A stretch of 64,000 nt of DNA, taken from assembly GCA_017527075.1 (NCBI GenBank), contig JAFXQM010000002.1, positions 62,001 through 126,000 of the forward strand. The letters are read 5' to 3'. Below, piece after piece: positions 30,876 to 46,099 of this stretch; position 1 is the stretch's first letter; every line of letters starts with the position of its first letter. Both the position numbers and the translations under genes were made by a program. The notes under the pieces are model-generated. The model had not been told where the DNA came from, did no database searches, and saw nothing but the letters and a program-made list of their open reading frames with translations. This DNA is from Selenomonadaceae bacterium. GTDB taxonomy: Bacteria > Bacillota > Negativicutes > Selenomonadales > Selenomonadaceae.

Positions 30876-31925
30876 ATGTTGCAGAGAATAATAAACCGAT
30901 TGAACGACCTGCGCCCCAGACAGCTTTTGATTTTGGCACTGGCAGCGGGTTTTCTGATGTTCCTGTCAATCATCGTCGCCATGAATTTCGTGACGAAAAA
31001 AGAAGTCGCGGTCATGCCGCCGGTGCAAGAAAAAGTTGCGCCGCCGCCCATCGAAAAGAAAGCCGTCGTCGTCGCCAAGATGAATATTCCGCCGCGCACG
31101 AGGATTCAGGAGAATATGCTCCAAATCAAAGACGTGCCCGCCGATATGGTGCCCGAAGGTGCAATCACGAGCTTTGACGCGGTTAAAAATGTTCAAGTCC
31201 GCGCTTCGATTTTTTCGGGCGACATTCTCACCGTTCAAAAAGTTTTCAACGACAAAGCCAACGAAGGATTCACGGGCGATATTCCTCCCGACTGCCGCGC
31301 AATTTCCATAAACGTCACGGAGGTCACGGGCGTGGCGGGCTTCGCGAAACCCGGCGACAAAGTTGATTTGCTCCTCGTCGAAAAGGACAAATACAGCGCG
31401 ACGACCAATATCATCCTGCAAAACGTTCCGCTCTTGAGCGTCAACCAAGACGCGGAAGGCAACAACTTGCTCGACGAAAACGGAATTGTAAAATCCTCGG
31501 CGATAAGCAACCCGACAATCGCAACGTTCGCGCTCCCGCCGCGGGATGTCATGAAATTAATCGCAGCGGTGAATCTCGGAGAAATTTATATGATGTTGCG
31601 CCCCGCTCACCCGCAGTCAGCTTACGTCGATGAAATGCAGTACACTCTCGACTCGGTGAACAAGCCGCAGCCCGAAACGCCCGTCATCCCCGCGAACCCG
31701 ACGCCCGACATGCCCTTGCCGCAAATCCCCGGCATACCGTTCGAGGCACCCGCTCCGAAGTTCGACATAATCGCGGGCGACCAAATCGTTCAGAGCTCCG
31801 AGGAGGCACCTTCGGCGGCGAACGGAAAATCGGCACTGCCCGCAATTCCTTCGCGAAGCTCGCAGCCCGCACCCAACGTCCCCAAAACCACTCTCTCGAA
31901 TATCATTCCGCCCACGAATAACTGA
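30876..31925 (+). CDS. cpaB: Flp pilus assembly protein CpaB/RcpC
   Basis: 349 residues from the ATG at 30876 (GAAAGG seven bases upstream). One N-terminal membrane segment (~14-34) is followed by a SAF domain (AKMNIPPRTRIQENML, ~65-125) and the RcpC domain (CRAISINVTEVTGVAGFAKPGDKVDLLL, in ~140-260), then a long Pro-rich tail. CpaB lies in the periplasm and works with the secretin to form the Tad pilus channel. The secretin gene follows 17 bases later. Confidence 0.9.
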   Translation: MLQRIINRLNDLRPRQLLILALAAGFLMFLSIIVAMNFVTKKEVAVMPPVQEKVAPPPIEKKAVVVAKMNIPPRTRIQENMLQIKDVPADMVPEGAITSFDAVKNVQVRASIFSGDILTVQKVFNDKANEGFTGDIPPDCRAISINVTEVTGVAGFAKPGDKVDLLLVEKDKYSATTNIILQNVPLLSVNQDAEGNNLLDENGIVKSSAISNPTIATFALPPRDVMKLIAAVNLGEIYMMLRPAHPQSAYVDEMQYTLDSVNKPQPETPVIPANPTPDMPLPQIPGIPFEAPAPKFDIIAGDQIVQSSEEAPSAANGKSALPAIPSRSSQPAPNVPKTTLSNIIPPTNN

Positions 31926-31942: not shown

Positions 31943-33697
31943 ATGAATTCATTTCTTAAAAAATTTTTTCTGACGGCTGTGCCCCTGTGTTTGGCGGCAA
32001 GCGTCGTCCAAGCGGCTCAAGTCGAAACGCTCAGCATAAAGCAGCAGACCTCGCACTACATGGACATGAAAAAGCGCATAACCCGCGTTGCCGTCGGCGA
32101 CCCCGCAATCGCCTCCGTCGTGCAACTGCCCGGCTCGGCCACCGAATTTTTAATCGTCACCAAGGCTGTCAGAGGTTCGACCGCGCTTTTCGTTTGGACA
32201 TTCGACGGCGCGCGCTACGAATATAATGTCGTCGTCTCGCCCGAAGACCCCGGTCAAGCCATGATGATTGAAAAAGCTATCGGGCTCCCCGACGTCCACG
32301 TTAAATACGTCGACGGCAGACTTTTGCTCACGGGCACCGTCGAAAATCAATATGAAAAAAATTACGCCCTGCAAACCGCCCGCCTCTTCGTCAACGCCGG
32401 CACCGAAAGCTCACTCCTCGTCGGCAGCGGCTTCGACATGAAGTTGGAAACGGATACCGCGCAAAATGCAACCAGCGGCAGAGACGATGACATTGAACTC
32501 AGCCAATCGGAGGCGAAGGGCGCGATTATCGACCTGCTCCAAATCCTCCGCCCGACTCAGATTCGGCTTGAGGCTCAGATTATCGAAATTAATTCCGACG
32601 CCGCACGGGAACTCGGATTCCAGTACGGCATAAACGGCAGCGGCGGAACTTTCGGCTTCGGCGAAAATTACAACCGCTCCAACACTTCCATCAGCGAAAC
32701 TTCTTCCGAAAACTGGTCAAGCTCCTACGGCGGCAGCGGCTCAAATTCTTTCTCCAACTCGTACAATTCAAGTTCAAGTTCAAGCGGCTCGGATTCTTCA
32801 TCTTCTTCCGACGAAGAAAATTCCTCGTCGAGTTCAAGCAGCAGCAGTTATGGTTATGATTCTTCCTCGTCGCGCGGCAACAGCGGCAGCGGCAACAACA
32901 GCTTCAGCGGCTCATACAGTTTCGGGCGGACTGTCACGTCAACCATGGACGGGCTCAGAACTTTCAGCAACAATCCGATTAAGTGGGTCACTCAGCATTT
33001 CGCGCCGATTAACGCCACGCTCACCGCGCTTGTCACGAACGGCAAGGCAAAAATTCTTTCCCGCCCGAGTGTCATGACGCTCAGCGGCGAACAGGCGACC
33101 ATTCAAATCGGCGGCAAAATTCCTTACGAAACAACGAGTGCTGTCGGCTCTTCCAACGTTTCCTTTGAAAACTACGGTATCATTCTCCAATTCAAACCCG
33201 TCGTCGATTCGCAAAACAGAATCAATTCGGCGATTCACGCGGAGGTCAGCAATCTCAGCGGGCAAGCCGTCAACGGTCGCCCGATTATCTCCACGCGCAG
33301 TGCCGATTCAATCATCAGTTTGAATTCGGGAATGCCAATCGTCATCGGCGGGCTCATGGATTCATCCGAGACAAAAACCGTTCAAAAAATTCCTCTGCTC
33401 GGCGATATTCCGATTCTCGGCGAATTTTTCAAGCACACGTCCAAATCCAGTGACAAGCGCGAAATTATAATTGTCGTGACGCCTTACCTTGTCGAAGAGG
33501 AAGAAATTTCTCGGTCGCCGATGTCGCCGCGCATGCGCGAGTGGTATGAACGTCAAGAAAAGCAGCGCGAGGAAATGGAAAGCCACGACTTCAAAAAACC
33601 CGAACCCGAAGTTGTGATTGAAGAGGAGCCCAAAAGCATTTTGCCGCCCGCCAACTATCCCAAGGACGGAAAAGTAACCGACACACCTTTTAAGTGA
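31943..33697 (+). CDS. cpaC: Tad secretin CpaC/RcpA with a Ser-rich insertion
   Basis: 584 residues. A signal peptide ends near VVQAAQV (~24). The N-terminal pilus/BON-like region (TRVAVGDPAIASVVQL, VHVKYVDGRLLLTGTV) leads into the secretin domain (QIRLEAQIIEI, then the late ILSRPSVMTLSGEQATIQIGGK and MPIVIGGLMDSSETKTVQKIPLLGDIPILGEFF). Between them, residues ~246-332 are an unusual Ser/Gly/Asn tract with acidic residues. It forms the outer-membrane pore, evidence that the host has an outer membrane. The charged Pro-rich tail is long. Confidence 0.92.
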   Translation: MNSFLKKFFLTAVPLCLAASVVQAAQVETLSIKQQTSHYMDMKKRITRVAVGDPAIASVVQLPGSATEFLIVTKAVRGSTALFVWTFDGARYEYNVVVSPEDPGQAMMIEKAIGLPDVHVKYVDGRLLLTGTVENQYEKNYALQTARLFVNAGTESSLLVGSGFDMKLETDTAQNATSGRDDDIELSQSEAKGAIIDLLQILRPTQIRLEAQIIEINSDAARELGFQYGINGSGGTFGFGENYNRSNTSISETSSENWSSSYGGSGSNSFSNSYNSSSSSSGSDSSSSSDEENSSSSSSSSSYGYDSSSSRGNSGSGNNSFSGSYSFGRTVTSTMDGLRTFSNNPIKWVTQHFAPINATLTALVTNGKAKILSRPSVMTLSGEQATIQIGGKIPYETTSAVGSSNVSFENYGIILQFKPVVDSQNRINSAIHAEVSNLSGQAVNGRPIISTRSADSIISLNSGMPIVIGGLMDSSETKTVQKIPLLGDIPILGEFFKHTSKSSDKREIIIVVTPYLVEEEEISRSPMSPRMREWYERQEKQREEMESHDFKKPEPEVVIEEEPKSILPPANYPKDGKVTDTPFK

Positions 33698-33724: not shown

Positions 33725-34567
33725 ATGGCTGTCGCGACGCCGCACTCCATCGAACGGAGCAGCGTTATAATCAGCGTGTTCAGCACGACGCCCGGTATCG
33801 GCAAGACGATAACCGCGATTAACTTGTCGGCGGGCTTGGCTCACGAAGGTTACAAAGTTTGCTTGTGCGACCTCGACCTGCAATTCGGCGACGTGCTCAA
33901 TTATCTGAAACTCTCTTCCACGAAAACCGTCGCGGGTGCTCAGCGCGAACTGCTCGACCACCCCGAAAAATTTCGCGTCAGAGATTTCCTGATTGATTAT
34001 GAACACGAGGGGCTGACCTTTTCGATTTTGCCCGCGCCGCTTTACGTCTTCGACGCATATCAAACCGACGTTGAACTTGTCACGGACATTGTCACCCGCC
34101 TCAACTTCTACGACTTTGTTATCCTCGACCTGAACTCAATGTTCAGCGCGTTGAATTTGGCGATGCTCGACATCAGCGCGGTCATAAATTACATTGGCGT
34201 TATCGACTTCCTGCCCGCGCTCAAAAATTACAAAATCGGTTACGATACGCTGATTCGCTTTGAGTACGAGGAAAGTAAAATCCGCCTCATTGAAAACCGT
34301 GCCGACTCGCAGAAATTAATCGACGGCAGAGACGTGGAAAAACTTTTGGGCGAGCCGTTCTATCACCGCCTGCCCAACGATTATCCGTCCGTCAACAAAT
34401 CGATTAACAGCGGTCAGCCGCTCATGTTCGCCGCCCCCGACTCCAAGCTGACAAAAAGTTTCGATGAACTCGTCGGGCTCTACACGAATCGTCAGCCGAC
34501 CATTGCGCCCGAAGAGGCGACGGGCGGAGGATTTTTAAGCAAAGTCAAAGGTTGGTTCGGCTTTTGA
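33725..34567 (+). CDS. CpaE/MinD-like ATPase with atypical Walker A (first of two)
   Basis: 280 residues of ParA/MinD fold. The P-loop is STTPGIGKTITAINL: the P-loop Lys is present, but the MinD signature Lys of KGGxGKT is replaced. CDLDLQFGDVL is the A'-box region, and residue ~130 reads FVILDLNS at Walker B. A C-terminal amphipathic stretch (SKVKGWFGF) may bind membrane. There is no N-terminal receiver domain. CpaE/TadZ proteins localise the Tad apparatus. GGAGG lies 9 bases before the ATG. Confidence 0.82.
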   Translation: MAVATPHSIERSSVIISVFSTTPGIGKTITAINLSAGLAHEGYKVCLCDLDLQFGDVLNYLKLSSTKTVAGAQRELLDHPEKFRVRDFLIDYEHEGLTFSILPAPLYVFDAYQTDVELVTDIVTRLNFYDFVILDLNSMFSALNLAMLDISAVINYIGVIDFLPALKNYKIGYDTLIRFEYEESKIRLIENRADSQKLIDGRDVEKLLGEPFYHRLPNDYPSVNKSINSGQPLMFAAPDSKLTKSFDELVGLYTNRQPTIAPEEATGGGFLSKVKGWFGF

Positions 34568-34657
34568 AAAACGATTTCTAATTCACAAGTGGTAAAAAAA
34601 GCGTCGGGTCTTGGGTTGGGATTCCAAAATCCAAATTGAACAAAGGGGGATTGAATC

Positions 34658-35764
34658 ATGGCTTACCGAGCGATTGTTGTTGATGACGACCCGAACATGT
34701 TGGACAACATTGTCAACACGCTCAAGCGTTCGGCTGACTTTGAAGTCGCGTCGTCTTACGGGCACGCGAGTGCCGCCATCAATCCCGCCGCCATGTTCCA
34801 TCCGGATTTATTCCTTCTTAACGTTGAGGACGAAGAAACCCTTAACATGGTGTCCGATTTCGTCGATAAGTTTCCCGGAGCGTACATCCTGGGCACGATG
34901 AACCAATGGGACCCGATAATTGCCCGAAAGACTTCAGAGGGCGGCGCGACGGGTTGTATCTTGAAACCCTTGACCGCCAGAGACATCCTCGAATACATTC
35001 AGCTCTACTCGATTCGCGGCGAACATAAGCCCGCAAAGTTGATTTCTTTCTTCAGCCCGAAAGGCCGCGCAGGGCGCACGACGTTGGCGGCGATTCTCGC
35101 GTTGCTGATTGCCGAGAAGACGGGCGAGCGCGTTGCTCTGATTGACGCCGACTTGCAATTCGGGGACCTGCCGATTTTCTTCGACTTGGAACCCAAACGC
35201 ACGGTCGTCGAGGCCACGCAGGATATCAAACTCCTGACGCCCGTAAGTTTCGCGCCGTACTTCTACCCGATTAAAGACGGCGTCGAATTGTTGAGCAGCC
35301 CCGACCGCCCCGAATACGCCGAGCTGGTTGCCCCCGAAAGTTTAACCGAAGTCGTCATGATGGCGGGCAACATCTTCCGCTACGTGCTTATCGATTTGCC
35401 TTCGGGCTTCAATCCGATAACGCTCAACGTCTGCCGCGTTTCAAATCTGGTTTTCGTCACGACGATGATAAACAGCGGCTTCGAGATTAAGCACGCAAAG
35501 AAAGCCATGGAAATGTTCGACTCGCAGGCTGACGGCCGCCGCAAAGTTCACGCGGTGTTCACCCGTGTAAATCCTTTCACGGAGGAAAACCGACAAAAAA
35601 TTTCCGACCAACTCGGCTATCCCGTCGACGACATGATTCCCAACGAGTACAAAATGATTTCCGTTGCCAACAGCGGCCGCCTTGCAAAAGGTTTGCCGAT
35701 GGATACATTGTTGATGAAGACGATAAGCGGCATGGCGGATAAAATTATCGCGTCAGCTTCTTAA
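34658..35764 (+). CDS. cpaE: CpaE/TadZ pilus-localising protein: receiver-like plus MinD-like domains
   Basis: 368 residues. Residues 1-120 are a response-regulator-like domain starting AIVVDDDPNMLDN, with LKPL near the end. The phosphoacceptor position reads FLLNVED, Asn instead of Asp, so phosphorylation is unlikely. Residues 125-365 are MinD-like with SPKGRAGRTTLAAIL: the signature Lys is kept but the P-loop Lys is Arg. DADLQFGDLPIFF and VLIDLPSGFNP follow. It complements the preceding gene, which has the reverse pattern. AAAGGGGG lies about 9 bases before the ATG. Confidence 0.85.
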   Translation: MAYRAIVVDDDPNMLDNIVNTLKRSADFEVASSYGHASAAINPAAMFHPDLFLLNVEDEETLNMVSDFVDKFPGAYILGTMNQWDPIIARKTSEGGATGCILKPLTARDILEYIQLYSIRGEHKPAKLISFFSPKGRAGRTTLAAILALLIAEKTGERVALIDADLQFGDLPIFFDLEPKRTVVEATQDIKLLTPVSFAPYFYPIKDGVELLSSPDRPEYAELVAPESLTEVVMMAGNIFRYVLIDLPSGFNPITLNVCRVSNLVFVTTMINSGFEIKHAKKAMEMFDSQADGRRKVHAVFTRVNPFTEENRQKISDQLGYPVDDMIPNEYKMISVANSGRLAKGLPMDTLLMKTISGMADKIIASAS

Positions 35765-35884: not shown

Positions 35885-36844
35885 ATGGTCGTTCTTGTCG
35901 CGGCAATGGGAGCGATAGCGACATTTCTCTTCGTGCTGTTCGGTCTGATGTTCATCAGGCGAAGTCGGAGCATGGACATCTTCCACCGCTTGCGCCGCCA
36001 CTATGACGCAAACGCCGGCAAGTTTAAGCAAACGGAAGACATCCTCCGCCGCGCCCACGATTTTATCGACAAGGCAGCAAAACCCATTGCCGATTTGAAC
36101 ATCTCAAAGAATTTAGATTTCATCCTCAAGCAAGCAGGTATCCCGCTTCTCGGCGCAGAATTTATCGTCGTTGCATTAATCTGCGCGGTGCTCGGAACGG
36201 TCGCGCTCTACGTGATAACGTTCAACCTGTCAATCGCGCCGCTCGCCGGCGTCGGAATTATTCTGATAATGTTGCTTTGGGTCAGAATGCGAGTCAATAA
36301 ACGACGCAAGGCTTTCACGGAGCAACTCGGCGATTGCCTGACGACGGTCGCGAACGCATTGCGCGCAGGTTACAGTTTCCAGCAAGCGATGGACGTGGTG
36401 GCAAGAGAAATGGAGCCGCCAATGAGTACGGAGTTTGAACGCGTGACGACCGACGTGGCAATGGGTGTGACGTTGGAAGACGCCCTGCAACAAATGAACA
36501 GACGCGTCGGCAGCAGAGACTTTGACCTGGTGGTCACGGCGGTTTTGATTCAGCGGGAAATCGGAGGGAACCTTGCACAGATACTTGACACGATAAGTTA
36601 TACTATAAATGAGAGAATCCGAATGAAGCGCGAGATAAATGCGCTGACGGCTCAAGGCAGATTCTCGGCGTGGGTGCTCATGGTTTTGCCGTTCGTCGTG
36701 GCGGCGTTCTGTTGGATATTCAACCACGACCAAATGCTCATCTTCGTCAACGAGGACATCGGGCGCATTGCCTTGGCTGCGATAATCATCATGCAGATTT
36801 TCGGATTCATCGTCATTCGACGGATTGTCGACATCGAGCTTTAA
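35885..36844 (+). CDS. tadB: Tad secretion inner-membrane protein TadB
   Basis: 319 residues. An N-terminal membrane segment, two central ones (~100-145) and two near the C-terminus (~255-315) flank the T2SSF domain (LGDCLTTVANALRAGYSFQQAMDVVAREMEPP in ~155-275). It forms the inner-membrane platform with TadC. GGAGGTAGAGA precedes the ATG. The 120-base gap upstream also holds an unused strong ribosome binding site (AAAGGAGGTGAG at 35763-35775) followed by a 17-codon TTG frame, which may be a remnant or leader. Confidence 0.9.
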   Translation: MVVLVAAMGAIATFLFVLFGLMFIRRSRSMDIFHRLRRHYDANAGKFKQTEDILRRAHDFIDKAAKPIADLNISKNLDFILKQAGIPLLGAEFIVVALICAVLGTVALYVITFNLSIAPLAGVGIILIMLLWVRMRVNKRRKAFTEQLGDCLTTVANALRAGYSFQQAMDVVAREMEPPMSTEFERVTTDVAMGVTLEDALQQMNRRVGSRDFDLVVTAVLIQREIGGNLAQILDTISYTINERIRMKREINALTAQGRFSAWVLMVLPFVVAAFCWIFNHDQMLIFVNEDIGRIALAAIIIMQIFGFIVIRRIVDIEL

Positions 36845-36926: not shown

Positions 36927-37133
36927 ATGATTAAGTACATCGATAAGCTGATTGCGAAGCTCAAGGCCTCGGAGAAAGGTCAGGGCATGGTCGAGTACGC
37001 ACTCATCATTGCGTTCGTCGCGGCAATCGCCATCGTCGCTCTTAACAACGGTTTGGGTCAGGCGATTAAAGACGCATTCACCAGTGCAAGTAGCATGGTC
37101 AGCAGCGCGAACAATGTGGTCACTAAAACCTAA
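36927..37133 (+). CDS. flp: Flp-type pilin prepilin
   Basis: 68 residues. A short leader ends KGQGMVEYALI: cleavage after the first Gly leaves the +5 Glu and +6 Tyr of the Flp family. One hydrophobic helix (ALIIAFVAAIAIVAL) and a Ser/Asn-rich tail follow. It is the major subunit of Tad adhesion pili, secreted through the complex encoded around it. GGAGGAGATAACTC precedes the ATG. Its own terminator follows, so it can be made in excess over the machinery. The processing peptidase (TadV/CpaA) is not in the window. Confidence 0.92.
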   Translation: MIKYIDKLIAKLKASEKGQGMVEYALIIAFVAAIAIVALNNGLGQAIKDAFTSASSMVSSANNVVTKT

Positions 37134-37282: not shown

Positions 37283-37301
37283 AAAAAGACGGGTGAGGCG
37301 T

Positions 37302-37766
37302 ATGAAAAGACAACAAGGACAATCGATGGTAGAATTCGCGCTCATTGCGCCGATAGTCTTCCTGATGATTTTCGGAATGATTTGGGGCGGAATAATGTTC
37401 ATGGAGTATATGCACTACAGCAACGCCGTCAGAACAGCCGCCCGTCAAATCGCCGTGGTAAATAATGATTCACAGCGCGCCGCAATGATAACATCGCAAA
37501 AAGAATGGTTGCAGGGCTTGTGGAAAGAGGAAGTGGGCGTGGAGTTTTACGAGCCGAATCCCGTAGTTAAGATTGAAGAAAATTACGCTGCCGAAGACAC
37601 GGAACATACAAACCTCTTGAGCAGAGACGTTGTGGTTACCGTAACTTTCAGGCGCGCGGTAAATATTCCTAACATCTTGGACGCGGTGGACTTCCCGCCG
37701 AAATATATCAAAACACTGGAATATCGGATGAGAGTTGAAGAGTCGAGCTCAAACGACCCGACTTGA
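37302..37766 (+). CDS. tadE: TadE-like pseudopilin
   Basis: 154 residues from the ATG at 37302; an in-frame GTG nine bases earlier is the alternative, and GGGTGAGG overlaps both. QQGQSMVEFALIAPIVFLMIF at the N-terminus is the TadE motif and lone membrane helix; the rest (~110 residues) is extracytoplasmic. Minor pilins of this type are processed like Flp and are needed for pilus assembly. cpaF starts 15 bases later. Confidence 0.85.
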   Translation: MKRQQGQSMVEFALIAPIVFLMIFGMIWGGIMFMEYMHYSNAVRTAARQIAVVNNDSQRAAMITSQKEWLQGLWKEEVGVEFYEPNPVVKIEENYAAEDTEHTNLLSRDVVVTVTFRRAVNIPNILDAVDFPPKYIKTLEYRMRVEESSSNDPT

Positions 37767-37781
37767 GGGGGCTGAAAATTT

Positions 37782-39284
37782 ATGGCAAGGTCATTATCGT
37801 TGTTGGAGCGTTTGGGCGGCAAGACACAGCAAGATAAGCAGCCGACCGAACGACCGCGCCTGCCTAAGCCCGAAGCAAAAAAAACGCCGACTCCTCAGCA
37901 GCCCGCCGAAACTTACACGGAAAAGCAAATCCAACAGGAACGCGAGGCTCACGTCGAAGCGTCGGCATTCGCGGGCAGACGCGCGCTGACAAGCCGCAAC
38001 GACGTAATGCAGGAGCTCAAGCTGGCAGTCCACCGCCGAATCGTCGACGAAATGACGCCCGAAGAACAGCAGGTGCTCGTTCGCGGCGAAGATGCGCGCG
38101 ACCAGATTAAAAATATCATTTCGGTTTACAGCAACCGCGAAATGGCGGAGAGTGCCTACACGCTGTCACGCGGCGAAAGACTTCAGCTCGTCGACGACAT
38201 CAGCAACGAACTTTTGGGCTTGGGACCGCTGGAACCTCTCCTGCAAAACGACAGCATAACCGAAATCATGGTCAACGGACCAAAGCAGATTTTTATCGAA
38301 CAAAAGGGCAAGCTCAAGCTCAGCGACGTGCACTTCTACGACAACGCGCACCTGATGAATATCATCGAGAGAATTTTGACGCCGCTCGGTCGGCGCGTGG
38401 ACGAATCATCTCCGCTGGTCGACGCGCGCCTTGCCGACGGTTCTCGTGTCAACATAATCATCCCGCCGCTGTCGCTCGTCGGTCCCGCAATCACCATCCG
38501 AAAATTTTCAAAGAAACCTCTGTCGATTAAAGACTTAATCGGCTTCGGCACACTCAACGAGGACATGGCGACGTTCCTTGAGGCTTGCGTCAAAGCACGG
38601 CTGAATATTTTGGTAAGCGGCGGCACGGGCTCAGGCAAGACGACGACGCTCAACGTTCTCAGCTCGTTCATTCCGCACACGGACAGAATCGTGACAATCG
38701 AGGACGCCGCCGAACTTCGCCTGCAACAAATTCACGTCGTGACTTTGGAGAGTCGCCCCGCGAACTTGGAGGGGCAGGGCGCGATAACCATTCGAGATTT
38801 GGTCAAGAACGCGCTGCGCATGAGACCCGACAGAATTATCGTCGGTGAGGTTCGTGCCGGCGAGGCGTTGGACATGTTGCAGGCGATGAACACCGGTCAC
38901 GACGGCTCGCTGACCACCGCCCACGCCAACACTCCCCGCGACGTCCTCAGCCGCCTGGAGACAATGGTTTTGATGGCGGGCATGGAACTTCCCGTCCGCG
39001 CCGTTCGCACTCAAGTTTCCTCGGCAATCGATTTGATTCTTCAGCAGTCCCGTATCCGTGACGGCACGAGAAAAATCACGCACATCACGGAGGTGCAGGG
39101 CATGGAGGGCGACACGATTGTCACGCAAGATTTATTCCGTTATGTGCAGGAGCGAATCGACGAGAAGGGCAAATCCGTCGGGCATTACGAAAGCATGGGG
39201 CTCATGCCGAATTTCATGGACAAGTTCCAAATGAACGGAATCGAGTTGCCGCCGTCGTTCTTCACAAGCGGACGGAAGAGGTGA
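37782..39284 (+). CDS. cpaF: Tad secretion ATPase CpaF/TadA
   Basis: 500 residues. The N-terminal region is Pro/Gln/Lys-rich (~1-70). The T2SSE ATPase domain carries Walker A VSGGTGSGKTTTLN (~283), the Asp box TIEDAAELRLQ, Walker B DRIIVGEVRAGEALDML and the His box TTAHANTPRDVLSRLE. It is the hexameric cytoplasmic motor for Flp pilus assembly. GAGGGGG lies about 9 bases before the ATG. Confidence 0.95.
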   Translation: MARSLSLLERLGGKTQQDKQPTERPRLPKPEAKKTPTPQQPAETYTEKQIQQEREAHVEASAFAGRRALTSRNDVMQELKLAVHRRIVDEMTPEEQQVLVRGEDARDQIKNIISVYSNREMAESAYTLSRGERLQLVDDISNELLGLGPLEPLLQNDSITEIMVNGPKQIFIEQKGKLKLSDVHFYDNAHLMNIIERILTPLGRRVDESSPLVDARLADGSRVNIIIPPLSLVGPAITIRKFSKKPLSIKDLIGFGTLNEDMATFLEACVKARLNILVSGGTGSGKTTTLNVLSSFIPHTDRIVTIEDAAELRLQQIHVVTLESRPANLEGQGAITIRDLVKNALRMRPDRIIVGEVRAGEALDMLQAMNTGHDGSLTTAHANTPRDVLSRLETMVLMAGMELPVRAVRTQVSSAIDLILQQSRIRDGTRKITHITEVQGMEGDTIVTQDLFRYVQERIDEKGKSVGHYESMGLMPNFMDKFQMNGIELPPSFFTSGRKR

Positions 39285-39290
39285 GCCGCG

Positions 39291-40298
39291 GTGTTCGTTG
39301 TATTCGCGTTGCTCGCCTCGTTTTTCTTTGCCGCAGCCGTCGCCTTCGGAGTGATGTATTATAAGCAAAATCCCGAAGCTCAACTGCGAAAACGTTTGCA
39401 CGACATGATAGACGCGGCGGAAGCGGAGCGCGCCAAGAATCCGAAGAAAAGAAAAAATAAAACGCCGACGATTGTCAAGCTGGCACCGAGCGCGGCGGTT
39501 CAACAACTCATTCGCCCCGGCGGCAAGTTTGCAAGATTTTATCGTCGAGTGATTCGCCCGTTCCTTAACAATATGGAAGACCGCCTGCAAAAATTTACGC
39601 CGAACGAAATCCGCCTTCAGCTGGAGGATAAAATTTTTCGCGTGGGCAAGGTCGGCGTCTGGAACGTCAAGCGGCTGGTGACGATTTGGTGCCTGTCGAT
39701 TATCGCGGCGACAATCATGGCGATTCTGGTCATACACAGCATGGACTTGCACCCGCTGCAAAAAATTTTTACAATCTTGCTCGGCGCGTTCATGGGCGCG
39801 GGCATTCCGTTCGCCATGCTGAATTCGGCGATAAGGAACAGGCAAAAAGCCATTCGCAGACAGCTGCCCGAATTCTTGGATATTTTGTGTGTAAGTGTTC
39901 AAGCGGGCTTGTCTTTTGACGGCGCAGTAGGTAAAATGACACAGCGAATGCACGGACCACTCATCGACGAATTCAAGCGCATGCAAAACGACGTGGCTCT
40001 CGGCATGACGCACCAATATGCTTTGACGAATCTGGCGCAACGTTGTGACTTGGAGGAAGTTTATCTGTTCACGACGTCGGTAATCCAAGCGGAGAAATTG
40101 GGCACGAGCATAACGCGAACGCTCAAAACTCAGGCGGACAACATGCGCGACCGTCATCGTCAGCACGTCAAAGCTCAGGCGTTGAAAGCTCCCGTAAAAA
40201 TAATTTTTCCCATGGTCTTATTCATCTTCCCGTCAATTTTCGTCATATTGCTTTTCCCCGCCGTGATGTCACTCATCAAAGCTTTCAGCGGAAAATAA
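39291..40298 (+). CDS. tadC: Tad secretion inner-membrane protein TadC
   Basis: 335 residues; GTG start six bases after a GAGGTGA inside the end of cpaF. One N-terminal membrane helix, two central ones (~125-180), the T2SSF domain (LPEFLDILCVSVQAGLSFDGA, then VIQAEKLGTSITRTLKTQAD) and a C-terminal helix. Partner of TadB. Last recognisable Tad gene; TadD-, TadF- and TadG-like genes are absent here. Confidence 0.9.
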   Translation: MFVVFALLASFFFAAAVAFGVMYYKQNPEAQLRKRLHDMIDAAEAERAKNPKKRKNKTPTIVKLAPSAAVQQLIRPGGKFARFYRRVIRPFLNNMEDRLQKFTPNEIRLQLEDKIFRVGKVGVWNVKRLVTIWCLSIIAATIMAILVIHSMDLHPLQKIFTILLGAFMGAGIPFAMLNSAIRNRQKAIRRQLPEFLDILCVSVQAGLSFDGAVGKMTQRMHGPLIDEFKRMQNDVALGMTHQYALTNLAQRCDLEEVYLFTTSVIQAEKLGTSITRTLKTQADNMRDRHRQHVKAQALKAPVKIIFPMVLFIFPSIFVILLFPAVMSLIKAFSGK

Positions 40299-40336: not shown

Positions 40337-41935
40337 ATGGAAATCAGCAAGGGTATTCGAGCACGACTGTTTTTCTTTTTTGTAGTCATGGGGGCAATCC
40401 CGTTTGTAATTTTGGTCACGGCGGGCGCGATTAACACAATCGCCGAGCTGGAGGAATCATACAAGCAAAACAGTTTGCTCAGGAACATCATAATCTCCGA
40501 GCATATAACCGAGCTCATCTCAAAAAATCAGGCGGTGCTCAAGTCCCTGTCCATGAGCCCGACCTTAATTGAGTATCTTCAAAATCCGACGGAAGACAAG
40601 CGCGGTTATGTCATGAAAATTTTGGAGGACGCCGACGAAATTTTTGACGACAACAATCTCACGGCGTTGACGGGCTCCGACGGCTGGCAAATGATTCGCA
40701 CGGACGGCGCGACCCTCGTCAACTTGAAAAAGCGTCAGCACTTCCAAGAGGCAATGAAGGGGCGAAGTTACGTCTCCGACATCATCTCCAGCATGGCGAC
40801 CGGCAAAATGGTTATCATCATTGAATCGCCCGTCTTCGACATGACAGGCAAATCAATCGGCATGATTCAGAGGAACTTCGACCTTGGCGCGCTGCAGGAT
40901 TATGTCACGGAGCTCGACGACAGTGAAGTTTACGTCGTCGTCATGGACAGGACGGGACGAATCATTGCCAACTCCGACGAGAACGCCAAAGCTCAGAACG
41001 AATACGCAATCGACAACAGTTACAAATTTATTCTCGACAGGATTTATAACAGCACGGGCGTCATTCGCCTGGAGATAAACGGAGAGGACGCGCTGGCGAC
41101 TTACTCGCGCAACATCGACACCGGATGGATGATTGTCACGATTCGCCCGTATCATTACATTCTCGACCAAGTTTACGATAAAGCGGTCAAGGCGGTTATC
41201 TTCGGAATGATTGTGCTCATTATCGGCACGCTGATTGCTTACCTGCTGAGTATTCGCGTGACCAAACCGATTATCGAAATGACAAACGTCGTTGAGGATA
41301 TCGCCAGCGGCAAGGAGATTGAAAACATCAAAGTTTCTTCCGACGACGAGCTTGGGCAGATGGCCGCCGCCTTTAACAAAATTCGTTCGGAGCGCGACGC
41401 TTATCAACTTGAATCCGAACTCGACAAGCTCACCGAACTTTTCAACAAGAAGACCATGGAAAATCTCTGCAAGATGAAACTCAAGACTTTCAACGAAAAC
41501 GAGAACTCGAATATCTTCATGGCATTTTATATAATCGACCTCGACCACTTCAAGGAAGTCAACGACCTGCTCGGTCACCAGTTCGGCGACAAAGTTTTGG
41601 TGGAGTTTGCAAAGGGCTTGAAAAAAATTTTCCGCCCGAATGATTGTATCGGACGCTTCGGCGGCGATGAGTTCGTGGTTATCGTCGACAGCCTGCCGAA
41701 CATGGAAGTCGTCGTGCGCAAGGCCGAACAGATTAAACAAATCGCATTCAACCTGGCGATTGACGGACGCTCACGATTCGTCACGGCGAGTATCGGCATT
41801 GCGATTGCTCCGCAGAACGGGCGCGATTATGACAGCCTGTTCGCGGCGGCGGACAAAGCGGTCTACCACGTGAAGAACAACGGCAAGAACGGTTATTACT
41901 GCCAGCTCTTCGCCGAAGACAACGACGACAATTAA
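40337..41935 (+). CDS. Diguanylate cyclase with Cache sensor, HAMP and GGDEF domains
   Basis: 532 residues. Membrane helices at ~10-30 and ~283-305 bracket a periplasmic Cache-like sensor (~35-280). HAMP (~305-355) leads into GGDEF (~365-525). The active site is GGDEF in GRFGGDEFVVIVD, and RPND five residues before it is an allosteric I-site. It synthesises cyclic di-GMP from GTP. It lies 38 bases after tadC with no terminator between, so it is likely part of the pilus transcript and may link a signal to adhesion. No PilZ or EAL protein is seen nearby. Confidence 0.92.
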   Translation: MEISKGIRARLFFFFVVMGAIPFVILVTAGAINTIAELEESYKQNSLLRNIIISEHITELISKNQAVLKSLSMSPTLIEYLQNPTEDKRGYVMKILEDADEIFDDNNLTALTGSDGWQMIRTDGATLVNLKKRQHFQEAMKGRSYVSDIISSMATGKMVIIIESPVFDMTGKSIGMIQRNFDLGALQDYVTELDDSEVYVVVMDRTGRIIANSDENAKAQNEYAIDNSYKFILDRIYNSTGVIRLEINGEDALATYSRNIDTGWMIVTIRPYHYILDQVYDKAVKAVIFGMIVLIIGTLIAYLLSIRVTKPIIEMTNVVEDIASGKEIENIKVSSDDELGQMAAAFNKIRSERDAYQLESELDKLTELFNKKTMENLCKMKLKTFNENENSNIFMAFYIIDLDHFKEVNDLLGHQFGDKVLVEFAKGLKKIFRPNDCIGRFGGDEFVVIVDSLPNMEVVVRKAEQIKQIAFNLAIDGRSRFVTASIGIAIAPQNGRDYDSLFAAADKAVYHVKNNGKNGYYCQLFAEDNDDN

Positions 41936-45154: not shown

Positions 45155-45337
45155 TTACAGCATTAAAAGTCGTTTTGATGAATCTCTGACGTGTATTATG
45201 TCTTCCGGTTCTTTTTTCGGGTCAGAAACGGACATGGTCACCAACAATATCCCGCCCGCGACCTTTTCGAGCTGCTCGTCGTCGAGTTTTTCCAGTTCCT
45301 CATTGATTTTTTTCAAGTTTTCTTCGCGTGTTGCCAT
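45155..45337 (-). CDS. Double-glycine-leader peptide 2 (bacteriocin-like)
   Basis: 60 residues from the ATG at 45337 (GGAGG about nine bases upstream). The leader differs from that of peptide 1 at only a few positions and ends EKVAGG. The mature part, about 31 residues beginning ILLVTMSVSD, is unrelated to peptide 1 and has no Cys. Promoter, leader and terminator are duplicated in tandem with peptide 1 (unit about 330-350 bp) while the cargo differs: the leader is conserved and the product diversified. Confidence 0.72.
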   Translation of the reverse strand: MATREENLKKINEELEKLDDEQLEKVAGGILLVTMSVSDPKKEPEDIIHVRDSSKRLLML

Positions 45338-45368
45338 TTTTATCAACCTCCAAATCGTTTTCTGTTGC

Positions 45369-45396
45369 TTATACGTTTCAAATCCGATTTCGTTAC
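45369..45396 (-). promoter_or_regulatory. ECF-sigma-like promoter of peptide 2
   Basis: Minus strand TGTAAC, 16 bases, CGTATAA; 32 bases before the ATG. Confidence 0.6.
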
Positions 45397-45429
45397 AGAG
45401 GTTAGCAAAAAAATTTTTCGCACTCAACA

Positions 45430-45465
45430 AAAAAAACCTCCGACAAGACTGCCGAAGGGCTTTTT
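45430..45465 (-). terminator. Terminator after hepT
   Basis: CCTCCGAC / GCCGAAGG hairpin followed on the minus strand by seven T. Confidence 0.7.
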
Positions 45466-45467
45466 AA

Positions 45468-45800
45468 CTACTCAAGAATTTTTTCAATCTGCAATTTCAT
45501 TTCCGGAAAATCTTTTGTAACCGTTTCGTAAACGTCGAGCATATTCAAAGTCTCGTATTTGTGAGCCACGATATCCCTGAATCGCGCCGCGTCTTTCCAT
45601 ACCACTTGCGGATAATTTTCTCTGAACTCCATGGTCAAATGCTTTGTAAGCTCTCCGATATTTATCGCCGTCATTCCCACTGCGCGTTTTGTCTTTTCGT
45701 CTGCCAAAAATTCTTCCGAAGTCATATTCGCCACAAATTTGAGTGCCAAATTTATTTCCGAGCAGATTTTTTCAAGCGCGATGCGTTCCCTATGCTGCAT
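45468..45800 (-). CDS. hepT: HepT-like HEPN ribonuclease toxin
   Basis: 110 residues, helical, of the DUF86/HepT family. RFRDIVAHKY near residue 72 carries the RX4HXY motif of HEPN ribonucleases. In characterised pairs, MntA inactivates HepT by AMP-adding modification at the Tyr of this motif. The start overlaps mntA by eleven bases. Cytoplasmic type VII toxin-antitoxin pair. Confidence 0.85.
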   Translation of the reverse strand: MQHRERIALEKICSEINLALKFVANMTSEEFLADEKTKRAVGMTAINIGELTKHLTMEFRENYPQVVWKDAARFRDIVAHKYETLNMLDVYETVTKDFPEMKLQIEKILE

Positions 45801-46077
45801 ATATTTCTATCTCCTTGTCAATTTCAAGCATGCAATCTTTTCCCGGCGGTCCGTGAATGATATCAACGCTGACTCCGAATATTTCTTCCAAATCATTCAT
45901 CAAGCCTGCCAAAGTGAACAAAGACACCGAGCGCGTTTCAAATTCAACAATCAAATCGACGTCGCTGTCTTCACGAAAATTTTTAGTCGCGCGCGAACCA
46001 AACAGCGTCACTTTTTTTATTCCGTATTTGGGAGCAAAAGCTTCGACCGTTTTTTTTATGTCTTCAACAGTCAGCAT
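45790..46077 (-). CDS. mntA: MntA-like nucleotidyltransferase antitoxin
   Basis: 95 residues. GSRATKNFREDSDVDLIVEF is the GSx10DxD minimal nucleotidyltransferase active site. I chose the ATG at 46077 (GAGGTGAT six bases upstream) over an in-frame TTG six bases earlier. It has its own TTGACA/TAAAAT promoter and precedes hepT, the usual order for this toxin-antitoxin class. Confidence 0.85.
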   Translation of the reverse strand: MLTVEDIKKTVEAFAPKYGIKKVTLFGSRATKNFREDSDVDLIVEFETRSVSLFTLAGLMNDLEEIFGVSVDIIHGPPGKDCMLEIDKEIEIYAA

Positions 46078-46099
46078 TTTCAATCACCTCTGCGGATAA

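Follow-up and report, generated by a model that had tools for sequence, protein, structure and literature searches.

The closest described counterparts of the proteins considered here are CpaE and TadZ of the Tad/Cpa pilus machine. In both Caulobacter CpaE and E. rectale TadZ (3FKQ) a receiver-like domain is joined to a MinD-like ATPase domain with a deviant Walker A motif, and their operon position is the one found at our locus. According to the available text of PMC13170226, six CpaE dimers of Caulobacter, predicted to be homodimers, are fitted as a ring around the hexameric motor CpaF. For MinD, the prototype of the fold, the accessible portion of PMC6803595 describes a membrane helix and a signature lysine that contacts the ATP of the partner subunit in the dimer. 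We have analysed 64,000 nucleotides from Selenomonadaceae bacterium (assembly GCA_017527075.1, contig JAFXQM010000002.1, positions 62,001 to 126,000 of the forward strand); this whole stretch is called the window, and all coordinates are given in its numbering. It carries two adjacent genes for such ATPases, here called P1 and P2, flanked by the gene for a CpaC-type secretin on one side and that for a TadB-like protein on the other, within a Tad/Cpa operon that extends from CpaB (30858) to TadC (40298). Whereas CpaE/TadZ is one protein, predicted or reported to be a homodimer, the receiver, the tail, the nucleotide site and the signature lysine are here divided over two. In the open-licence literature searched, no account was found of CpaE/TadZ proteins that occur as a pair and share out the Walker A lysines.

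The two ATPases and their nearest relatives

P1 (33725..34567, + strand; 280 amino acids) is a MinD-like ATPase lacking a receiver domain, as judged from its open reading frame, a match to a Pfam P-loop ATPase family and the match of its modelled domain to MinD (3q9l). Its deviant Walker A motif, TPGIGKT (residues 22-28, 33788..33808, within FSTTPGIGKT), has threonine (T22) at the signature position and retains the P-loop lysine, K27 (33803-33805). The C-terminal tail, GFLSKVKGWFGF (34529..34564), is likely a membrane-targeting helix of the MinD type, to judge from the count of Phe and Trp in such tails. P2 (34658..35764, + strand; 368 amino acids), assigned from its open reading frame, its Pfam matches (again including a P-loop ATPase family) and the match of its modelled domain to 3ea0, joins a receiver-like domain (34658..35011; Pfam Response_reg over residues 6-114, 28.2 bits, below the cut-off of 30.2) to a MinD-like ATPase in one chain. 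Its Walker A motif, KGRAGRT (residues 135-141, 35060..35080, within FSPKGRAGRT), has the signature lysine, K135 (35060-35062), and arginine (Arg140, 35075-35077) in place of the P-loop lysine. A preliminary description, made from the letters of the sequence, had read both motifs in just this way, P1 as keeping only the P-loop lysine and P2 only the signature lysine, and we confirm it on both counts; neither protein has the canonical KGGxGK[ST] with both lysines in one chain.

The fold of MinD (E. coli 3q9l) is common to both ATPase domains. In Foldseek/VIA comparisons the modelled domain of P1 matched it with Z 27.4 and a root-mean-square deviation of 2.6 over 237 aligned residues, and the C-terminal membrane helix of MinD is like the tail of P1. 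MinD is, however, a symmetric homodimer with two sites, and both proteins lie far below the cut-offs of the NCBIfam MinD families TIGR01968 and TIGR01969 (35.0 and 37.3 bits for P1, 42.6 and 41.8 for P2, against 212.9 and 201.75). By sequence the nearest solved structure to both P1 and P2 is 3ea0, a ParA-family ATPase of Chlorobium tepidum, which is also nearest to P2 by fold (Z 29.6, deviation 2.4, 237 aligned residues); like P2 it has kept the signature lysine and lost that of the P-loop, though to glycine where P2 has arginine. TadZ of E. rectale (3fkq) was matched by sequence with an E value of 0.0093. The combination of signature lysine and P-loop arginine is also that of the KGGVGR-motif variant AAA ATPases (NF047398), for which P2 scored 33.8 bits and P1 21.5 against a cut-off of 90; P2 differs from them in having lost the second glycine, and the P-loop position varies among its relatives (K, R, Q or S). 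ArsA, which we take to be a fused two-site relative, was not among the 50 matches listed for each fold comparison, which excludes nothing. Caulobacter CpaE has, in the available part of PMC13170226, a C-terminal amphipathic helix; a sequence pattern of this kind is seen in P1 and in many lone CpaE, and by the count of Phe and Trp it is nearly absent from P2.

Division of residues and domains in the pairs

For comparison 305 loci were gathered: 41 relatives, 80 named loci, the profile matches from the class, 80 further stretches, lone-type CpaE, selected genomes and genomes of the phylum. The profile search matched 190 of 380 genomes of the class and 156 of 398 of the phylum Bacillota; the named near relatives of P2 are metagenome-assembled genomes of Selenomonadaceae and Quinella sp. 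1Q5, 2Q5 and 1Q7, and on that basis we take the source, a rumen bacterium, for a Quinella-like Negativicute. Adjacent ATPases on the same strand were counted as a pair, which gave 135 distinct pairs, or 133 after exclusion of two from a three-gene array in genome G101; proteins with the Walker A motif cut off (e.g. P1 of loci L046 and L058) were left out of the counts. The lone CpaE set comprises 55 distinct proteins of more than 330 amino acids (L275 excluded), lone meaning that the fetched flank holds no neighbour. Eighty loci (L031-L110) were collected by a pattern scan that used, among others, [STA]FFSPKG[RK][AS] and A[LI]IDADLQ; 127 of the 133 pairs were found also, or only, by whole-length profiles or proteins rather than by motif, and profile A1 was itself built from such pairs. 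In the 24 sampled loci outside the Negativicutes (L282-L305), no second ATPase stands beside the first within a flank of about 1.5 kilobases.

P1 has the P-loop lysine in all 133 pairs and a signature lysine in none, the position being held by Ala (62), Thr (39), Ser (26), Gly (2), Val (2), Glu (1) and Ile (1). The signature lysine of P2 is present in 133 of 133, and its P-loop position is Lys in 67, Arg in 61, Gln in 3 and Ser in 2, the lysine thus being lost in 66. Lone CpaE have both lysines almost throughout (signature position K 54 and R 1, P-loop position K 52 and R 3). The preliminary description had looked to conservation of both Walker A patterns in related Tad loci; that of P1 is conserved without exception, that of P2 in only 66 of 133 pairs. 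On these alignments and the tree described below, loss of the signature lysine from P1 is general for the pairs in the sample, and loss of the P-loop lysine from P2 is a later, repeated change. A pattern repeated across 133 distinct pairs rules out sequencing error, chance or a single odd metagenome-assembled genome. P-loop arginine was also considered as a defining feature of the pair and rejected, since 67 of the 133 P2 keep lysine and three lone clostridial CpaE have arginine. An extreme form, KGHAGQT, is found in P2 of the cultured Selenomonas ruminantium HD4, and P2 of Pelosinus fermentans reads KGKSGKT. The asparagine reported earlier at the receiver's acceptor position is present as N55 (34820-34822); it proves lineage-specific, aspartate being commonest among the P2 relatives (Asp 80, Asn 29, Ser 2 of 133, with 22 unreadable by the pattern used).

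The division goes well beyond the two lysines. In lone CpaE 34 columns of the ATPase domain show a single residue in at least 95% of the proteins. Both members of the pair preserve 12 of these at the 90% level, P1 alone 8, P2 alone 7 and neither of them 7. The P1-only columns include N33, the NR-motif asparagine N191 and the GxP proline P232, the P2-only columns K135 and G136. N191 and P232 we take, from MinD structures, to serve in recognition of the base. The NR-motif asparagine is found in 132 of 133 P1 and 2 of 133 P2, the GxP proline in 133 and 2, respectively. The second glycine of KGG, present in all 55 lone CpaE, is replaced in P2 by Arg (61), Lys (61), His (9) or Asn (1) and remains glycine in one; it is lost, with the asparagine and the proline, even from P2 proteins whose P-loop lysine is intact. 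Where P2 has the P-loop lysine, its counterpart of N33 is nearly always Asn (66 of 67 proteins); where that lysine is missing, Asn is rare there (5 of 66). In P1 the aspartates of the Walker A' and Walker B motifs are nearly invariant (D49 and D51 in 132 of 133, D135 in 133).

The domains are divided in the same reciprocal manner. At least 100 residues precede the Walker A motif in 2 of 133 P1, in every P2 and in all 55 lone CpaE, and the 14 C-terminal residues include at least two Phe or Trp in 121 of 133 P1, 1 of 133 P2 and 24 of 55 lone CpaE. Judged against lone CpaE, which is receiver plus ATPase, P1 is by its sequence a protein that lost the receiver and keeps the residues of the nucleotide site and the aromatic tail; P2 appears to have kept receiver and signature lysine and to have lost residues that look like those of base recognition. 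Two subunits that occur together have, in other words, reciprocally lost residues of the site.

A tree of 188 ATPase domains was made with the Walker A columns removed and with sequences more than 78% identical and of the same motif state dropped. In it 74 of the 76 proteins that come first in a pair form one group; another holds 68 of the 70 that come second, together with a lone P2 whose sequence is cut off (supports 86 and 90 in the Shimodaira-Hasegawa-like approximate likelihood ratio test, SH-aLRT, from a quick search). Only members of the odd array of G101 and the second member of the L021 pair lie elsewhere. The fewest changes that the tree requires at the signature position are at least 11 in P1 (74 rows), none in P2 (70 rows) and one in lone CpaE (38 rows), and at the P-loop lysine none in P1, at least 6 in P2 and 2 in lone CpaE. 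This pattern, in which the P-loop of P1 and the signature lysine of P2 are fixed while the other two positions drift, is what a lysine acting in trans would predict. The P-loop lysine of P2 has been lost at three separate places (the clade of Quinella and S. ruminantium, where arginine later gave way to glutamine or serine; L254/L255; and L252), and the signature lysine was kept every time, as expected if it serves the site of the partner. Once P1 no longer lent its lysine, the site of P2 would have become useless and free to drift; the pair would still have depended on the site in P1 and on the lysine from P2. The early-branching pairs L021 and L256 have a receiver in both proteins, and the first already lacks the signature lysine, which places the loss of the receiver from P1 later.

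Two further arrangements were met among these loci. In G101 (L264:220-3866) three CpaE-like ATPases with long branches stand in a row, the first without the signature lysine (LGRSGKT), the second complete (KGGVGKT) and the third without the P-loop lysine (KRGVGQT). Two assemblies (loci L033 and L096; L032 and L097) carry two pairs each, one with KGRAGRT in P2 and the other with KGRSGKT, so that both states coexist within one cell line.

A putative P1-P2 heterodimer and its alternatives

P1 and P2 lie in one frame and were given to AlphaFold2 as a single chain with the stops between them read through, and 23 other in-frame pairs were aligned to it. The resulting model (679 amino acids, 24 rows) has a mean predicted local distance difference test (pLDDT) value of 84.2 and a predicted template modelling score (pTM) of 0.80, with residues 1-10 and 259-311, that is, the P1 tail and the linker, disordered; a distant pair of the K/K type, L092 (654 amino acids, 16 rows, largely from the same loci), gave 81.9 and 0.79. 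If P1 were unplaced with respect to P2, a pTM of about 0.5 would be expected by our own arithmetic (scale length about 9 Å, P1 errors near 27 Å). These values point to a defined complex of the two proteins.

We consider it probable, though well short of certain, that P1 and P2 are an obligate MinD-like heterodimer derived from a duplicated CpaE/TadZ, with one working ATP site that lies in P1 and that P2 completes with its K135. For this locus a heterodimer sharing a single composite site had already been proposed; it stands as the best explanation, now on evidence wider than two lysines, with the amendment that the two defects are unequally conserved, that the asymmetry is stronger in the asparagine, the proline and the second glycine that P2 has lost, and that loss of a lysine is no proof of a dead site. 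On this reading a single CpaE/TadZ protein would have been duplicated in tandem and its functions divided between the copies. P1 would hold the nucleotide, through K27, N33, D49, D51, D135, N191 and P232, and would thus provide the only ATP site; its C-terminal tail would anchor the pair to the membrane. P2 would hold no nucleotide, or hardly any, would provide the receiver-like domain and, the two proteins being presumably face to face, would extend K135 over the interface to the ATP bound in P1. Binding of ATP by P1 may then close the heterodimer, which would dock the Tad motor (TadA/CpaF) by direct contact and set it in position at the inner membrane, in the manner proposed for CpaE homodimers of Caulobacter, and turnover, presumably by hydrolysis, would release it; each dimer of the CpaE-type ring around the motor would consist of one P1 and one P2. 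Composite active sites shared by related subunits, one of the sites being degenerate, are known from heterodimers of the signal recognition particle (SRP) type and of the ATP-binding cassette (ABC) family, which belong to other families and for which no homology is claimed.

Several observations weigh against this heterodimer. All the pairs are of one common origin and the counts are therefore not independent. The supports of the P1 and P2 groups are moderate, not above 95, and one second-of-pair protein, that of L021, does not group with the other P2. The modelling consists of confidence scores for two P1-P2 chains, and the interface and the position assigned to K135 are proposals. A moment-based criterion of amphipathicity separates the tails poorly (112 of 133 P1, 73 of 133 P2 and 39 of 55 lone CpaE), because the last helix of P2 is also amphipathic. 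Switch II of P1 (residues 136-141) reads DLNSMF instead of the DxPxG-like motif that P2 has kept; among the relatives P1 has Asn or Thr at the place of P2's proline and Met, Ala or Val at that of the glycine, in which P2 and lone CpaE differ from it. Loss of the P-loop lysine is also seen outside pairs: 3ea0 has KGGDGGS, with the signature lysine kept, and three lone clostridial CpaE (L289, L290 and L302) have KGGVGRT with no adjacent partner within about 1.5 kilobases, so the change from lysine to arginine occurs without an adjacent partner. As to activity, the available part of PMC10482377 reports that E. rectale TadZ is active as an ATPase without both lysines, helped by a lysine of a helix, and that the K52A and K57A changes leave the ATPase activity of MSMEG_3743 unchanged; it is from these reports that lost lysines are no proof of a dead site. 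Deviant motifs are likewise carried by McdA (SGGQGKT) and BcsQ (RGGVGTT), which lack the standard lysines, in the accessible text of PMC9178275 and PMC8262871.

The activity reports and the McdA and BcsQ motifs favour a different arrangement, in which P1 and P2 would each form a homodimer with a task of its own and other residues would stand in for the missing lysines. The candidate is K167 of P1 (column 468), which is lysine in 131 of 133 P1. We regard this as unlikely, if worth serious attention: K167 is equally conserved in lone CpaE (55 of 55), which have the signature lysine, and so is no new substitute, and among the columns examined (those at least 90% one residue in one group) no lysine or arginine gained in P1 only was seen that could have taken its place. 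Separate homodimers would also leave unexplained why the signature lysine of P2 is invariant where its own P-loop lysine, asparagine and proline are gone, and why receiver and aromatic tail were lost reciprocally; both read-through models, moreover, place P1 and P2 together with high pTM.

The departure of P1 switch II from the family motif could instead mean that P1 and P2 do form a heterodimer and that it is a static scaffold, in which P1 holds ATP and K135 of P2 only aids closure, with little or no turnover. We think this quite unlikely, in that D49, D51 and D135 of P1 are held with a strictness that a site for binding alone might not need. That P2 is simply a paralogue in decay, of little use apart from its receiver domain, would fit its losses of the P-loop lysine, the P-loop glycine, the NR asparagine and the GxP proline; it seems very improbable for a protein retained beside P1 in 133 pairs, with K135, G136, D163 and D246 kept and, in an alignment of very diverse sequences, a mean column identity of 61% along extended stretches. 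The heterodimer with its site in P1 is the reading that we retain. The split of residues and domains on which it is built, with its conservation and order, is there to be read in the aligned proteins.

The surrounding operon and the place of the pair in the Tad machine

The genes around the pair, all on the + strand, make it a member of a Tad/Cpa operon. Upstream lie those for CpaB/RcpC (30858..31925; NCBIfam TIGR03177, 150.4 bits against a cut-off of 71) and for a secretin of the CpaC/RcpA type (31943..33697; Pfam Secretin and T2SS-T3SS_pil_N). Downstream follow a TadB-like platform protein (35885..36844; Pfam T2SSF), a putative Flp-type major pilin of 68 amino acids, assigned by reading the sequence of its open reading frame (36927..37133), a TadE-like pseudopilin (37293..37766; Pfam TadE), the motor ATPase TadA/CpaF (37782..39284; Pfam T2SSE, and NCBIfam TIGR03819 at 343.1 bits, below the cut-off of 373.15) and a TadC-like platform protein (39291..40298; Pfam T2SSF). 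Directly after TadC, at 40337-41935 (+), Pfam identifies a dCache-HAMP-GGDEF protein, and cyclic di-GMP may, by virtue of this adjoining gene, be tied to the Tad operon. A role of P1 and P2 as defence genes was considered and rejected, since with PADLOC P1 had no match and P2 a single weak one (E value 0.00038).

Farther along the window, on the - strand, a small open reading frame (45155-45430) has, by eye, a leader ending in LEKVAGG that is reminiscent of a double-glycine peptide precursor. Two small overlapping frames follow at 45468-46083 (-), the second of which contains GSRATKNFREDSDVDLIVEF; we take this motif to resemble that of a minimal nucleotidyltransferase of HEPN/MNT toxin-antitoxin pairs.

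In the usual view a MinD/ParA switch is a homodimer whose subunits each provide a lysine for the partner. The broader proposition, on which we find ourselves evenly divided, is that in the Negativicutes a symmetric MinD-type homodimer has become an obligate asymmetric heterodimer using one ATP per dimer, with P1 as the anchor and P2 as a receiver-bearing pseudo-ATPase that lends its lysine, the order of the losses being a natural record of how a single-site dimer evolves. If that is true, the ring around the pilus motor would gain a built-in polarity. A naturally divided pair would allow the halves to be tested singly, for which subunit binds ATP, whether one site is sufficient and what part the signature lysine plays. 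The picture of CpaE/TadZ in the Tad machine would also have to be redrawn for a whole bacterial class, of which cultured members with the extreme form exist.

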